Assembly: GCA_947381325.1 (NCBI GenBank)
Contig: CANCUP010000015.1
Coordinates: forward strand, 1-32,393
Source of the DNA: Comamonadaceae bacterium
Lineage (GTDB): Bacteria > Pseudomonadota > Gammaproteobacteria > Burkholderiales > Burkholderiaceae_C
Length of the DNA: 32,393 nt
Reading direction: 5' to 3'
The position numbers and the translations under genes were made by a program. Positions 1,542-9,779 of this stretch are shown here, one piece after another. The notes under the pieces are model-generated. The model was not told where the DNA came from, did not search any database, and saw only the letters and a program-made list of their open reading frames with translations. Position 1 is the first letter of the stretch, and each line of letters opens with the position of its first letter.

Positions 1542-3533
1542 TCAGGCGTTGGTCACCACGCGCAACACTTCTTCACCATAGGCTTCGAGTTTTTTCACGC
1601 CAATACCGGCAATGTCTTGCAGTGCCGACAAACTATCGGGTCGGGCTTGGGCAATTGCGCCGAGCGTGGCGTCGTGAAAAATCACATAGGCGGGCAGGTT
1701 GTGGGCGCGTGCCACTTCGGCGCGCCAAGCCTTGAGGGCGGCATAACGCAGCTGACCTTGGGCATCGAGTTCTACCGGTGCGGGCTTGGCTGTGCCGCTG
1801 GCACCCCGTTTGGCTTTGCGCTCGGCCGGTGTCGACACCGAGGCACGCAAGCGCACGGTGACATCGCCTTTCAAAACTGCCCGTGAGGCCTCGGTCAGAT
1901 ACAAGGTGCTGAAGGCTTGGGCATCCACGCCCAAGGCTCCAATCGCAATGAGCTGACGCAACACGCCGCGCAACTGCACCTCGGTGAAATGGGCGCCAAT
2001 GCCAAATGTGCTCAAGGCTTGATGCCCGTATTGCTGCATTTTCTCGGTGGTTTTGCCGCGCAAGATGTCCATCAAGTGCCCGGCCCCAAAAGAGATGCCG
2101 CTTTGCTGTTGCACCCGGTAGATGGTGGACAGCAGCATGCGGGCGGCTTCGGTGCCATCCCAAATTTCGGGGGGGTGCAGGCAGTTGTCGCAGTTGCCGC
2201 AAAAATACTGACGTGCCCCCACGCTCGGCACTGGCGTGTCCTCGCTGCCCCCCGAGGGGGCTGGCCTGCCTTGGGAACGGCCCGGCGGCAGTCCGGCTGC
2301 CCCCACGCTCGGCACTGGCGTGTCGGGTTGGTAGGTTTCGCCGAAGTAGCGCAGCAGCCGCACGCGGCGGCAGTCGGTGGCTTCGGCGAGGGCGAGCAGG
2401 GCGTCGAGTTTGCCGCGCATGACTTGCTTGAAGTCTTCGCCTGCCGGGCTCTCGTCGATCATGCGGCGTTGGTTGACCACATCGTTCAGGCCGTAGGCCA
2501 TCCAGGCGTGGGCGTCTTGGCCATCGCGTCCGGCGCGCCCGGTCTCTTGGTAATAGCCTTCGATGTTTTTGGGCATGTCCAGGTGCGCCACAAAGCGCAC
2601 ATCGGGTTTGTCGATGCCCATGCCAAAGGCGATGGTGGCCACCATCACCAAGCCTTCTTCGCGCAAGAAACGGTTTTGATGGCGCTGGCGAATCGCCCCG
2701 TCCAAGCCCGCGTGGTAGGGCAGCGCGGCAATGCCGGCGTCGCACAACAGCTTGGCCACTTCTTCCACCCGGCGGCGGGATTGGCAGTAGACGATGCCGC
2801 TGTCTTGCCCCCAAGCCCCACTGTGCTCGCGTTGGATGAAGCGCAGCAGCTGCAAGGACGCGTCTTTTTTCTCCACGATGGTGTAGCGGATGTTGGGACG
2901 GTCAAAGCTGCTGACAAACTGCTGGGCGTCCTCTAACTGCAAACGCTCCACGATGTCGGCGCGTGTGAGGGCATCGGCGGTGGCGGTGAGGGCCAGGCGT
3001 GGCACACCCGCATAGCGTTCGTGCAGCACCGTGAGGGCGCGGTACTCGGGGCGAAAGTCGTGGCCCCATTGGCTCACGCAATGCGCTTCGTCAATGGCGA
3101 ACAGGCTGAGTTGGCCTTGGGCATGCAAGGCGTCGAGCTGTGCCAAAAAGCGTGGTGTGGTGACGCGCTCAGGCGCGGCATACAGCAAGGTGATGTCGCC
3201 CCGGCGCAGCCGTTGCTCCACCGCATAGGCTTCTTCGCCGCTCAGACTGGAGTTGAGAAAGGCGGCTTCAACGCCCGCTTCGTGCAGTGCGCCCACTTGG
3301 TCGTGCATGAGCGCGATGAGCGGCGACACCACGATGGCGATGCCATGTCCCATGCGTTGACGCGCTATGGCCGGTATTTGGTAGCAGAGCGACTTGCCGC
3401 CGCCGGTGGGCATGAGCACCAGCGCGTCACCACCGGCGCACACGTGCGCCACGATGGCTTCTTGCGGGCCGCGGAATGCGTTGTAACCAAAAACCTCGCG
3501 CAGGATCTCGTGCGTGCTTACATCTGTTCCCAC
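1542..3533 (-). CDS. recQ: ATP-dependent DNA helicase RecQ with an in-frame insertion
   Basis: Superfamily 2 3'-5' DNA helicase acting in recombination and fork repair. Walker A MPTGGGKS has its Lys at residue 47, DEAH is at 148-151, the RecQ aromatic loop [11 protein letters not shown] follows, and motif [12 protein letters not shown] is near 329-338. The C-terminus carries RQC and HRDC domains. The zinc site is C388, C445, C448, C451. In E. coli RecQ the first two cysteines are 17 residues apart; here they are 57 apart. The extra segment of about 40 residues contains DTPVPSVGA twice (404-412, 432-440), encoded by a DNA repeat (see 2214-2324). Start: GTG at 3533, overlapping the rhodanese gene by 16 bases; there is no clear Shine-Dalgarno, suggesting translational coupling. 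Confidence 0.95.
2214..2324. repeat. 27-bp direct repeat with GC-rich palindrome inside recQ
   Basis: Identical 27-base copies lie at 2214-2240 and 2298-2324, exactly 84 bases apart (28 codons), so the reading frame is kept. Between them is a hairpin-forming tract, G-C6-GA-G5-C (2247-2261), and a second GC-rich stretch with CCGGCGGCAG and CCGGCTGC. The look is that of a short dispersed palindromic element of a kind I recall from Comamonadaceae intergenic regions; I see no second copy in this window. It encodes the Pro/Gly/Ser-rich insertion of RecQ. Confidence 0.8.
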
Positions 3534-3910
3534 GGCAGCCCATCAAAGCGCCAGCCATTCAGGCTAGAGCGCTGGAAGTTGGCGTTCAAGTCGCCTTCGA
3601 ACCCGTGCAACACATTCACCACGTCGGTGAAACCGCCGGCTTCCAAGGCGCGGCCTGCATCCACCGAACGTTGGCCACTGCGGCACAGCAGCACCACGGT
3701 GCGGTCTTGGCGGCCCGCCTCGGCCAGCACGGCGGCACAAAACGCAGCCGTGTCGGTGGTGAATTCGGGGTATTCGTACCAAGAAATATGCACAGCACCC
3801 GGCGGGCGCCCCACATACATGGACTCAATCTCCATGCGGATGTCGACCATCAACGCATCAGGATTGGCTTGCATCAGGGCCCAGGTGTCTAAAGGGAGCA
3901 GGTTTCGCAT
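3518..3910 (-). CDS. Rhodanese-like domain protein
   Basis: A single-domain sulfurtransferase of 130 residues. The active-site loop is LLCRSGQRS with the catalytic Cys at 76, and the CH2A-like element MVDIRMEIE is at 21-29. Such proteins move sulfane sulfur to thiol acceptors; the physiological acceptor cannot be read from the sequence. There is no signal peptide, so it is expected in the cytosol. Its 3' end overlaps recQ by 16 bases, forming a two-gene unit. It is divergent from metH1 with only 34 bases between the two ATGs. A GACAAT hexamer lies eight bases before its ATG and there is no Shine-Dalgarno, so its mRNA may be leaderless. Confidence 0.88.
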
Positions 3911-3944
3911 GGGGCGTGATTGTCCCTCTTCTTACAATCCCCCC
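3911..3944. promoter_or_regulatory. Back-to-back near-leaderless promoters, rhodanese gene and metH1
   Basis: This 34-base gap holds two outward-facing -10-like hexamers: GACAAT on the minus strand (3924 to 3919), eight bases before the rhodanese ATG, and TACAAT on the plus strand (3933-3938), six bases before the metH1 ATG. Neither gene has a Shine-Dalgarno. Initiation about seven bases after each hexamer would begin the mRNA at or next to the start codon. Convincing -35 boxes are absent, and each would fall in or next to the other gene's coding sequence. Confidence 0.5.
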
Positions 3945-5018
3945 ATGACCCTCACCTACACCCGCGCCCAACAATTGCCCGCACTGCTGGCCCAACGCAT
4001 CGCCATCTTGGACGGCGCCATGGGCACCATGATTCAGCGCTTCAAGCTCAGCGAGGCCCAATACCGGGGTGAAGGCTACAACGGTGCCGATGCGCAATAT
4101 GCGCGCTTCAAAGACTTTCACAAAGACGTCAAAGGCAACAACGAGTTGCTCAGCCTGACACGCCCCGATGTGATTCGCGACATCCACGAGCGCTATTTGG
4201 CCGCGGGCGCCGACTTGATCGAGACCAACACCTTTGGCGCCACCACCATCGCGCAAGCCGATTACGACATGGCCGATTTGGCCCGCGAGATGAACCTGCG
4301 CTCGGCCCAAATTGCCCGCGAAGCTTGCGATAAATACAGCACGCCCGACAAGCCCCGCTATGTGGTGGGCGCTTTGGGCCCCACGCCCAAAACGGCCAGC
4401 ATCAGCCCGGATGTGAACGACCCCAGCGCACGCAATGTCGACTTTGAACAACTGCGCGCGGCCTATTACGAACAAGTGCAAGCACTGGTCGAAGGCGGCG
4501 CCGACGTGCTGATGGTGGAAACCATCTTCGACACACTCAACGCCAAGGCAGCGCTGTTTGCGATTGACGAGTTTTTCGAAGCGAGCGGCGAGTGCTTGCC
4601 CTTGATCATCAGCGGCACCGTGACCGATGCCTCGGGCCGCATCTTGAGTGGCCAAACCGTGACCGCGTTTTGGCACAGCGTGCGCCATGCCCAGCCATTG
4701 GCCGTGGGGCTCAACTGCGCACTCGGTGCGACCTTGATGCGGCCCTACATCCAAGAGCTGGCGCGGGTGGCGGGCGACACCTTCATCAGCTGCTACCCCA
4801 ATGCAGGCCTGCCCAACCCCATGAGCGACACCGGCTTTGACGAAACGCCCGATGTCACCAGCCGCTTGCTGCACGAGTTTGCGGCCGAGGGCTTGGTCAA
4901 CATCGTGGGTGGCTGCTGCGGCACCACGCCTGAGCACATCGCGGCCATTGGCCAAGCGGTGGCCGACCAACACGCCCGCGCCTTGAGTGCTGGCCCGTTC
5001 TACCGCGAAGCGGCATAA
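3945..5018 (+). CDS. metH: Methionine synthase, homocysteine-binding subunit
   Basis: This 357-residue protein corresponds to the N-terminal homocysteine S-methyltransferase domain of B12-dependent MetH (E. coli residues 1 to about 350). The signature [11 protein letters not shown] is at 21-31. The zinc-thiolate ligands that activate homocysteine are C258 in GLNCALG and C324/C325 in [10 protein letters not shown]. It accepts the methyl group from methylcobalamin, so it must work with the metH2 product (7032-9779). The open frame extends upstream, but that part lies opposite recQ and the rhodanese gene and is not plausible coding; [10 protein letters not shown] at 3945 is the natural start. 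A TACAAT box six bases upstream and no Shine-Dalgarno point to leaderless expression. The amidase follows after 10 bases. Confidence 0.95.
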
Positions 5019-5028
5019 GGCGCCTGCC

Positions 5029-6321
5029 ATGTCACACCACCTCTTGAGCGCTTGTGAGGCCGCCGAACAACTGGCCCAACGCAGCCTGCGTGCCGAAGAC
5101 TTGGTGCACGATTGCTTGGCCCGCATCGACGCCCGTGAAGCCGAGGTGCAAGCCTGGAACCACGTGGCGCGCGACGCTGCACTCGCGCGTGCGCGGGCTT
5201 TGGACCAAGGTGCCCACCAAGGCTTGTTGCATGGCCTGCCGATTGGCGTGAAAGACCTGATCGCCACCGCCGACATGCCCACCACCTATGGCTCGCCCAT
5301 CTATGCCGGGCATCAACCGGCGAACGACGCCAGTTGTGTGGCCCTGGCGCGTGCGGCGGGCGCGGTGGTGCTGGGCAAAACCGTGACCACCGAGTTCGCC
5401 ACTTTCCAACCCAACCAAACCCGCAACCCGCACAACACGGCGCACACGCCGGGTGGATCGTCGTCCGGCTCGGCCGCCGCCGTGGCCGATGGCATGGTGC
5501 CGCTGGCACTGGGCACGCAAACCGCAGGCTCGCTCACCCGACCGGCTGCGTATTGCGGCATCGTGGCTTTCAAGCCGAGCTTTGGCGGCATCAACCGTGC
5601 GGGCGCCAAGCCCTTGTCCGACACCTTGGACACCGTGGGCACCTTGGCGCGCAGCGTGCCCGATGCGGCCTTGTTTGCTGCGGCCTTGAGTGGTCGCCCT
5701 GACTGGTTGGTGCGCCCCATGGGCGAACACCTGGCCCGCCCCTTGCGCGTGGGCCTGTGCTACACCCACGAGTGGCCCCAGGCTTTGCCCGAAACCCAAG
5801 ACGCCATGCAGCAAGCGGCGACGCGCATTCAAGCCTCGGGTGCCATGACCTTGCACGAGGTGCGTTTGCCCAAAGACTACGAGCTGCTGGTGCAGGCCCA
5901 AACCCACATTCAGCTGGCGGAACAAGCCCAATGTTTGGCCTACGAACGCTTGCAACACTTTGAGCGCTTGAGCCCGCGCTTGCAGGGCATCGTGCAGTCG
6001 GGCGTGGCCGTGACCGCGGCGCAATACGACCAAGCCCAAGCGTGGGTGGCGCGCTGCCGCGCCCAGTTGACCGAGGTGTTCCAAGACGTGGATGTGCTGC
6101 TCGCGCCCAGCGCAGCAGGCGCAGCACCTGTGGGCTTGGACAACACCGGCGACCCATTGTTTTGCCGCATCTGGACCGTGCTGCACACCCCCACGGTGAA
6201 CATTCCGGCCGGCCACGCGCCCAATGGCATGCCAGTGGGGCTGCAGGTGGTGGGGCCGGTGGGTGCCGATGCGTTCACCTTGGCGGCGGCGCATGCGCTG
6301 CACCAGAGCTTGATGCGCTGA
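5029..6321 (+). CDS. Amidase, amidase-signature family
   Basis: A 430-residue enzyme of the amidase signature family, which hydrolyses carboxamides to acid and ammonia with a Ser-cisSer-Lys triad. Visible elements are K75 in PIGVKDL, the Gly/Ser-rich PGGSSSGSAAAV (cis-Ser about S144) and the nucleophile S168 in TQTAGSLTRPA. The substrate is unknown. GatA, allophanate hydrolase and other amidases share this fold; no gatB, gatC or urea gene is adjacent, so GatA is unlikely. No signal peptide is visible. It starts 10 bases after metH1 with a weak AAGG upstream and probably shares its transcript. Its position between the two halves of methionine synthase has no obvious metabolic explanation. Confidence 0.9.
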   Translation: MSHHLLSACEAAEQLAQRSLRAEDLVHDCLARIDAREAEVQAWNHVARDAALARARALDQGAHQGLLHGLPIGVKDLIATADMPTTYGSPIYAGHQPANDASCVALARAAGAVVLGKTVTTEFATFQPNQTRNPHNTAHTPGGSSSGSAAAVADGMVPLALGTQTAGSLTRPAAYCGIVAFKPSFGGINRAGAKPLSDTLDTVGTLARSVPDAALFAAALSGRPDWLVRPMGEHLARPLRVGLCYTHEWPQALPETQDAMQQAATRIQASGAMTLHEVRLPKDYELLVQAQTHIQLAEQAQCLAYERLQHFERLSPRLQGIVQSGVAVTAAQYDQAQAWVARCRAQLTEVFQDVDVLLAPSAAGAAPVGLDNTGDPLFCRIWTVLHTPTVNIPAGHAPNGMPVGLQVVGPVGADAFTLAAAHALHQSLMR

Positions 6322-6360
6322 GTTGGCCCGCGTGTTTCAGCCACAAGGGCTTGCACACCC

Positions 6361-6876
6361 ATGAACAAAAGGGTCTCGTTGACCGTTCTGTTGTGCGTGA
6401 CGCTGGGTGTCACGGGCTCGCACCTGGCGTGGGTGGAGAGGGACAACGGCCATCTGTTGCTGGTAGACGCGCGAGAAGTGGACGTGTTGGGGCAGGCCGA
6501 GAACCAGTGGGTCCGCCTGCGAAGAAGCTGTGCGGGTGTTGCACAACTTAGCCCACACGACGCTGGTTTTCAGCAGGCCCAAGCGGTGATCCAAGCGTAC
6601 AGCCCGCCGCACTCGCAATCTGCGCGGCTCGCCGGTGTTTGGACGACGGGCGACTGGACCTTGGCGGAGGTGGAATTCACCCAGCTGTTGCCCGCGGTGG
6701 TGCTCCTTCACTCCACGGGCACACGCGCGGAGGTCATTCCCGGCGCTGTTTGGAGTGGCTACACCTTGCCTTGGAAGGCCGCGCCCTACATCAGGCGCTA
6801 CCTGGGCGCGCAGGCCACTGGCGTGCCGGCGCGGTTGTTGGACTGTTTTGAGCCGCAATCCGAGGCCTTTCGGTGA
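6361..6876 (+). CDS. Exported protein of unknown function
   Basis: A 171-residue product I do not recognise. It begins MNKRVSLTVLLCVTLGVTGS, a basic start followed by a hydrophobic stretch, so a signal peptide or membrane anchor is likely. The rest is soluble, with two cysteines (in RRSCAGV and LLDCFEP) that could pair in the periplasm. It lies 39 bases after the amidase and just before the metH2 riboswitch. A weak AAGGGC lies about 12 bases before the ATG. The open frame, the sensible N-terminus and the fit between neighbours argue that it is real, but no domain is evident. Confidence 0.65.
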   Translation: MNKRVSLTVLLCVTLGVTGSHLAWVERDNGHLLLVDAREVDVLGQAENQWVRLRRSCAGVAQLSPHDAGFQQAQAVIQAYSPPHSQSARLAGVWTTGDWTLAEVEFTQLLPAVVLLHSTGTRAEVIPGAVWSGYTLPWKAAPYIRRYLGAQATGVPARLLDCFEPQSEAFR

Positions 6877-6902
6877 CATTTCAGGCCTGCGACGGGGCAC
6901 GT

Positions 6903-6908
6903 TAAAAT
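6903..6908 (+). promoter_or_regulatory. -10 element for the metH2 riboswitch transcript
   Basis: TAAAAT sits so that a start six to seven bases later (6914-6915) is exactly the first base of the riboswitch pseudoknot strand. This agreement supports a dedicated promoter. A -35 box is not convincing; GTGACA at 6873-6878 is spaced 24 bases away, which is too far. Confidence 0.6.
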
Positions 6909-6913
6909 TCGAC

Positions 6914-7002
6914 GGCCCCAAGGAGCGTTGCAGCTTCACCCAACCTTTCCCGGTTCGTGCGTGAAGTCAGGCTTGGGGCCCTACTTTTGCAACGACGCTC
7001 AC
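6914..7002 (+). promoter_or_regulatory. SAH riboswitch (S-adenosylhomocysteine aptamer)
   Basis: All parts of the SAH (ahcY-motif) aptamer can be traced. The 5' strand GGCCCCAAG (6914-6922) pairs over nine bases with CTTGGGGCC (6972-6980), forming the pseudoknot. P1 is GAGCGTTGC (6923-6931) with GCAACGACGCTC (6989-7000). P2 is CTTCAC (6934-6939) with GTGAAG (6961-6966). The conserved junction CAGG (6968-6971) precedes the pseudoknot strand, and the RNA ends in the typical GCTCAC. The class is known upstream of ahcY, metH and metF in Proteobacteria and is usually an ON switch that responds to SAH. Here it precedes metH2. Confidence 0.93.
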
Positions 7003-7023
7003 CTGAACGATGACCCCAGGTGA
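7000..7023 (+). promoter_or_regulatory. metH2 Shine-Dalgarno in a sequestering hairpin
   Basis: CACCTG (7000-7005) is fully complementary to CAGGTG (7017-7022), which contains the Shine-Dalgarno AGGTGA (7018-7023) eight bases before the metH2 ATG. The anti-SD strand begins at the last base of riboswitch P1. Formation of P1 with bound SAH could therefore compete with this hairpin and free the ribosome site. The overlap is only one or two bases, so exclusion may be steric rather than a full strand switch. Confidence 0.7.
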
Positions 7024-7031
7024 GATCCCCC

Positions 7032-9779
<2,748 letters not shown>

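Follow-up and report, generated by a model that had tools for sequence, protein, structure and literature searches.

The stretch of DNA analyzed here (the window; 32,393 nucleotides of a Comamonadaceae genome) encodes a cobalamin-dependent methionine synthase split into two genes on the same (+) strand. The first of these, metH1 (3945-5018), codes for the homocysteine-binding half, a protein of 357 aa with an S-methyl_trans domain (PF02574, E = 9.4e-97). The second, metH2 (7032-9779), codes for a 915 aa half that holds the folate-, cobalamin- and reactivation-domains, with the Pfam domains Pterin_bind, two B12-binding and Met_synt_B12 (PF00809, PF02607, PF02310 and PF02965); its nearest named match is from Limnohabitans sp. 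JirII-31 (96% identity). Between the two halves lie, again on the (+) strand, an amidase-family gene (5029-6321, 430 aa; PF01425, E = 9.6e-83) and an ORF of 171 aa (6361-6876) for which neither Pfam nor NCBIfam gives a match (E 0.001). The product of this ORF bears a hydrophobic, signal-like N-terminal stretch, and tblastn (E 1e-5) recovered no match to it in the 80 upstream loci. On the other side of metH1 is a divergent gene for a rhodanese-domain protein (3518-3910, - strand; PF00581), which starts 34 nt from metH1. As a GACAAT box is present on the strand of the rhodanese gene (3919-3924), 8 nt before its ATG, the divergent pair may share a two-way promoter. Of 78 metH1 genes, 15 have the complementary hexamer, ATTGTC, in the 70 nt that precede them.

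Immediately upstream of metH2 is the single Rfam match of the window (cmscan, gathering score), namely the SAH riboswitch RF01057 at 6914-7007 (+), which was also recovered by a whole-genome SAH search. Its score of 59.3 bits (E = 1.1e-8) is well above the cut-off of 37, and the match covers model positions 1-78 of 78. By this covariance-model score the element is predicted to be an SAH riboswitch. The P1 helix is formed by GGCCCCA (6914-6920) and TGGGGCC (6974-6980), both supported by the cmscan alignment and the MFE fold, and the CAGG core is present at 6968-6971. The cmscan alignment and the sequence place the 5' strand of the pseudoknot, GAGCGTTGC (= GAGCGUUGC), at 6923-6931 and its 3' strand, GCAACGACGCTC (= GCAACGACGCUC), at 6989-7000; the GAGCG of the former pairs with the CGCUC of the latter, and as a free duplex the two strands have a computed energy of -13.6 kcal/mol. 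Thus, the proposal of an earlier note, made from the letters alone, that a complete SAH aptamer stands before the second half of a split methionine synthase is borne out by the Infernal search that it had itself suggested: in the source genome the riboswitch precedes metH2 and not metH1. Its 3' end is 24 nt from the metH2 ATG, which places it before a gene of the SAH recycling and methionine synthesis pathway, the kind of target described for RF01057. A second SAH riboswitch, found by the whole-genome search of this assembly (88.9% complete), precedes a gene that we take to be ahcY from its AhcY motif. The class was reportedly described by Wang et al. 2008 and Edwards et al. 2010, and the title of the former is said to state that its members activate genes.

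A scan of positions 3400-7200 for sigma-70 consensus promoters returned 0 sites, with 0.5 expected; hence, we judged -10 boxes by their conservation instead. A TAAAAT -10-like box lies directly 5' of the aptamer at 6903-6908 (+). An alignment of 72 leaders (L103, which offers no anchor, was left out, as was L248 from the corresponding ahcY alignment) revealed a TAAAAT-like box at a near-constant distance upstream of the aptamer, with A at 75-88% in three positions, while no -35 signal stood out in these leaders. This conservation supports a metH2 transcript start at about 6914. The earlier note had drawn attention to the same box, and in this it was right; however, it had the RNA begin at the first base of the pseudoknot, while 6914 is the first base of P1 and the pseudoknot begins only near 6923.

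We then surveyed which half carries the switch in the family. SAH matches were found in 195 of 200 sampled family genomes, and metH2 likewise in 195 of 200. Genomic positions were compared in 80 genomes, which were hand-picked from the listed metH2-bearing entries ordered by score and are hence not a random sample. Among these 80, a switch directly before metH2 is the rule, being found in 72 (71 above the cut-off and one, G154, at 32.0 bits). In a single genome (G125) the switch is placed before the metH1 of a metH1-metH2 pair (L077, 5804-5893), where metH1 lies 39 nt before metH2; here the switch would gate both halves, which makes this genome a natural control. A switch before metH1 alone was seen in none of the 80 genomes, and in 7 there is none at either gene; in three of these seven (G001, G192 and G168) metH1 lies 48-120 nt before metH2. 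Eight loci had shown no switch at threshold; on a rescan with relaxed settings only L135 of these yielded an SAH match, which at 32.0 bits is below the cut-off. One locus, L105, contains on the (-) strand (5230-5314) a match of 61.2 bits to anti-hemB (RF02837), a Burkholderia sRNA family.

The metH1 gene presents a distinct type of start. In the window, a TACAAT -10-like box (3933-3938, +), recognized from its sequence and conserved position, is situated 6 nt before the ATG. We sought the pattern TAnnAT 4-10 nt before the start codon in the 80 genomes and the window and found it in 74 of 81 metH1 genes, ending 6-9 nt before the start. For those 78 genes with automatically assigned starts it is present in 72, always at 6-9 nt, as against 0.63 expected from shuffles, and in 54 of the 72 the box is TACAAT; of the three starts set by eye, two have a box and one (L286) has none. 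The same pattern is absent from all 46 SD-type starts among the leaders (that of G125 included) and from all 39 ahcY starts. Further, anti-SD pairing upstream of metH1 (mean -3.63) is weaker than in shuffles (-4.68). As a rough background, 20 of 353 ORFs from the loci carry the pattern early in the frame, of which 15 are metH1 by motif and another (L142) is also metH1, leaving 4 that are not; this ORF set, built greedily, captures no more than some 16 of the metH1 genes present there, so that the background rate may be underestimated and is only indicative. Thus, metH1 shows the features of a leaderless gene, i.e., a -10 box that would place the transcript start at the start codon and the lack of a Shine-Dalgarno (SD) sequence. 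The position of the box together with the weak SD pairing suggests that the metH1 mRNA is probably leaderless. In G125, where the switch stands in front of metH1, this gene lacks the box near its ATG and has an SD-type leader.

Based on these observations we consider it quite likely that the SAH riboswitch turns on the translation of metH2 alone, and that metH1 has a separate promoter, which yields a leaderless mRNA. The strongest competitor, which we nevertheless regard as unlikely, is that the two halves are still co-regulated, either because metH2 is also transcribed from the metH1 promoter or through a control of metH1 that has escaped our view. Indeed, metH1, the amidase gene, the ORF and metH2 are co-directional with short gaps, so that read-through from the first three into metH2 is possible in the source genome, and metH1 is found upstream on the same strand as the switch-bearing metH2 at 250-10000 nt in 41 of the 80 genomes and at less than 250 nt in 5 more. 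However, a switch acting on the SD would act on any mRNA that carries it, and a leaderless metH1 would leave no room for a riboswitch of its own. Moreover, in 26 switch-bearing genomes metH1 is elsewhere: in 10 of them, of which some have fragmented assemblies, it is on another contig, and in 16 it shares the contig with metH2 but is distant from it or on the opposite strand.

How the switch might act on metH2 is suggested by the 24 nt that separate it from the ATG. An anti-SD arm, CUCACCUG (6998-7005, +), which shares its CUC (6998-7000) with the 3' strand of the pseudoknot, can pair with CAGGUGAG (7017-7024, +), situated 7 nt before the ATG at 7032, to form an OFF hairpin of 8 pairs with a computed energy of -12.5 kcal/mol. 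Withdrawal of the CUC would reduce this hairpin to a remnant of 5 pairs, ACCUG/CAGGU, at a computed -4.1 kcal/mol. The AGGUGA within CAGGUGAG is predicted to pair with the 16S tail, for which we assumed the sequence, at -10.8 kcal/mol, three further downstream pairs included; hence, CAGGUGAG is the likely SD of metH2. Using fold programs that represent neither the pseudoknot nor the ligand, we found that blocking the pseudoknot bases raises the predicted accessibility of the SD in all 46 leaders considered (mean of 0.02 before and 0.25 after blocking; for the window, 0.00 and 0.19). The model therefore has the pseudoknot state and the full SD hairpin as in part mutually exclusive, from which it follows that SAH binding should raise metH2 translation. 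Thus, the element should be a translational ON switch, with an SD that is sequestered in a hairpin and freed when the ligand-bound fold disrupts the latter. The pseudoknot removes only 3 of the 8 pairs of the OFF hairpin and the mean accessibility reaches only 0.25, and with the 5-pair remnant this suggests that the release of the SD may be partial.

The conservation of this pairing was assessed in 73 leaders, comprising 71 metH2 leaders from the family, that of the window and that of G125, which stands before metH1. The six-pair core CUCACC/GGUGAG or a variant thereof is complete in 68 of the 73 when G-U pairs are allowed (a count that takes in four CTCGCC and one CTTGCC loci), as against an average of 6% of shuffles; 56 of the 68 use Watson-Crick pairs only. 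The variants include CUCGCC, which pairs with GGUGAG through G-U (four leaders), CUCACU with AGUGAG (one leader) and, in one leader (L094), a change on both sides to CUUGCC/GGUAAG. The position adjoining the core, which lies outside the pseudoknot, forms a Watson-Crick pair in 54 of the 68 leaders versus 32.2 after shuffling, an excess that is inflated by the shared ancestry of the relatives, such that the shuffles overstate covariation; position 8 of the arm has no covariation excess in the 68 leaders (39 versus 36.6 after shuffling). When the first ATG is taken irrespective of its frame, the SD arm lies at most 9 nt from it in 46 of the 68 leaders and 13 to 76 nt from it in the other 22, which indicates that the direct SD form of the switch is not universal. 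In certain more distant family members (for instance L133, L136 and L139) a GC-rich hairpin some 29-37 nt upstream of metH2 contains the GGUGAG, and in L136 and L139 a GGCCGCC recurs just before the metH2 ATG. Such hairpins may represent the switch in an indirect form.

The ahcY leaders of the family provide a point of comparison. In these the same arm is fully paired in 35 of 39 cases (an AhcY-like peptide is found behind each of the 39), and the first ATG is at least 14 nt from the arm in all 34 that have an ATG within 90 nt; the leaders listed mostly possess a separate TGGAG-like SD further downstream. Many of them (L223-L261) display a GGUGAG, a short CGTGG or similar motif, a T run and a separate TGGAG before the ATG. 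We did not include in this set the third SAH match of G173 (L262, 38.1 bits), which lacks the CGCTC, is followed by no AhcY-like peptide and bears no resemblance to the others. Hence, while in the metH2 leaders the strand that competes with the pseudoknot is the likely SD, in the 39 ahcY leaders it is not, and the ahcY platform thus appears to differ from that of metH2.

These leaders bear on a further alternative, to which we attach a low probability, namely that the riboswitch works mainly at the transcriptional level (via termination or Rho access) with the SD pairing being secondary. The short stem followed by a T run in some ahcY leaders and the GC-rich hairpin around the GGUGAG in the more distant metH2 leaders would be compatible with it, but in the window itself there is no terminator-like site between the aptamer and metH2, the ATG is just 24 nt from the aptamer, and the pairing arm is itself the likely SD. 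That the aptamer is merely a decayed copy of the ahcY switch with no effect on metH2 is highly improbable: seven of the 80 relatives lack a switch at metH2 and that of G154 is low-scoring, but the window copy is a full-length match of high score, and most of the family genomes examined retain the aptamer along with the -10-like box and the SD pairing.

We hence return to the translational switch on metH2 alone as the preferred reading. The aptamer, the pairing partners, the gene layout and their conservation can all be read directly from the sequences, and from these we infer the transcript starts, the response to SAH, the direction of control and the leaderless translation of metH1. The RNA would be transcribed from the TAAAAT box, starting at about 6914. 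When SAH is scarce, CUCACCUG would pair with the SD region CAGGUGAG and keep the ribosome off metH2; on binding, SAH would stabilize the pseudoknot and draw the CUC out of the hairpin, leaving the 5-pair remnant and an exposed SD. No such switch would operate on metH1, with its own promoter and leaderless mRNA. On a build-up of SAH, ahcY and metH2 would rise together, such that SAH is hydrolysed and homocysteine remethylated, and the amount of the cobalamin/folate half would track that of SAH.

To place these features in a wider context, we sampled 60 genomes from the order, 58 of them outside the family. A fused metH, called when the metH1 match falls in an open frame of >1200 aa common to the metH2 match, was counted by eye in 44 of the 49 outside genomes with a strong metH1 match (E <1e-100), while G256 has a split MetH with no riboswitch nearby. 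In the 46 outside genomes having both metH and an SAH riboswitch, none has the two within 10 kb of each other, the closest pair on the same contig being 10.3 kb apart; an earlier distance comparison outside the family used a stricter filter, which can lose weak matches. This gives no support to the view that metH2 inherited its regulation from a fused metH that was already controlled. A leaderless-type box was found in 2 of the 28 outside metH loci read, which are those of the best matches, and one of the two stands before a TTG. Tandem SAH matches on one strand, 44-95 nt apart, occur in other families of the order (G209:C93, G238:C45, G245:C1 and G247:C32). A natural SAH riboswitch of Dechloromonas aromatica, named after metH, is reported to have been used in riboswitch design (PMC5621056). 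That report notwithstanding, the split, the switch at metH2 and the box at metH1 look like family features in the genomes compared.

Taken together, these observations suggest that the two halves of the enzyme have opposite modes of initiation, with an ungated, leaderless metH1 and a metH2 whose SD is shut by the switch. We lean towards a scenario wherein SAH sets the MetH2:MetH1 ratio, and the switch and the box arose along with the split of metH, given that in the other families the gene is mostly fused, has no SAH riboswitch nearby and mostly lacks the leaderless box; any order among the split, switch and box changes is tentative. The system would thus be a natural case of a two-protein enzyme in which one subunit is metabolite-sensed and the other is not, an arrangement that most of the examined family genomes share. 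The switchless genomes and G125 offer natural contrasts for asking whether SAH sets the subunit ratio or the total amount of the enzyme. The leader is also a candidate for a compact ON switch, with a single strand that would take part by turns in the pseudoknot and in the anti-SD pairing. To us, the most interesting part lies outside the coordinates of the aptamer: metH1 looks leaderless, whereas metH2 would be gated by the switch.

In comparison with known systems, the window copy resembles the RF01057 class in its aptamer, pseudoknot, conserved core and target pathway, and we saw no difference in the aptamer; passages of two papers give the class as about 1000-fold selective for SAH over SAM (PMC7367207, PMC11188199). 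A split of the same kind is described in the main text of a study on Burkholderia glumae, with an N-terminal MetH1 of 38.2 kDa and a C-terminal MetH2 of 99.6 kDa at neighboring locus numbers, and that text does not use the word riboswitch (PMC6667456). Leyn et al. (2014; PMC4239095) list MetH in the SAH riboswitch regulon as a member specific to the Comamonadaceae; hence, both the riboswitch class and its target are already in print. For the Comamonadaceae, the passages of that paper compared here, section 9 among them, make no statement on control of the second half only, on the expression platform or on metH1. Likewise, the portions of the literature searched (including PMC7949028) contain nothing on point regarding one-sided control, a leaderless metH or metH1, or leaderless genes in the family. 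Thus, the sensor is an ordinary one for its class, while its one-sided control of a split enzyme with a leaderless partner gene may be new.
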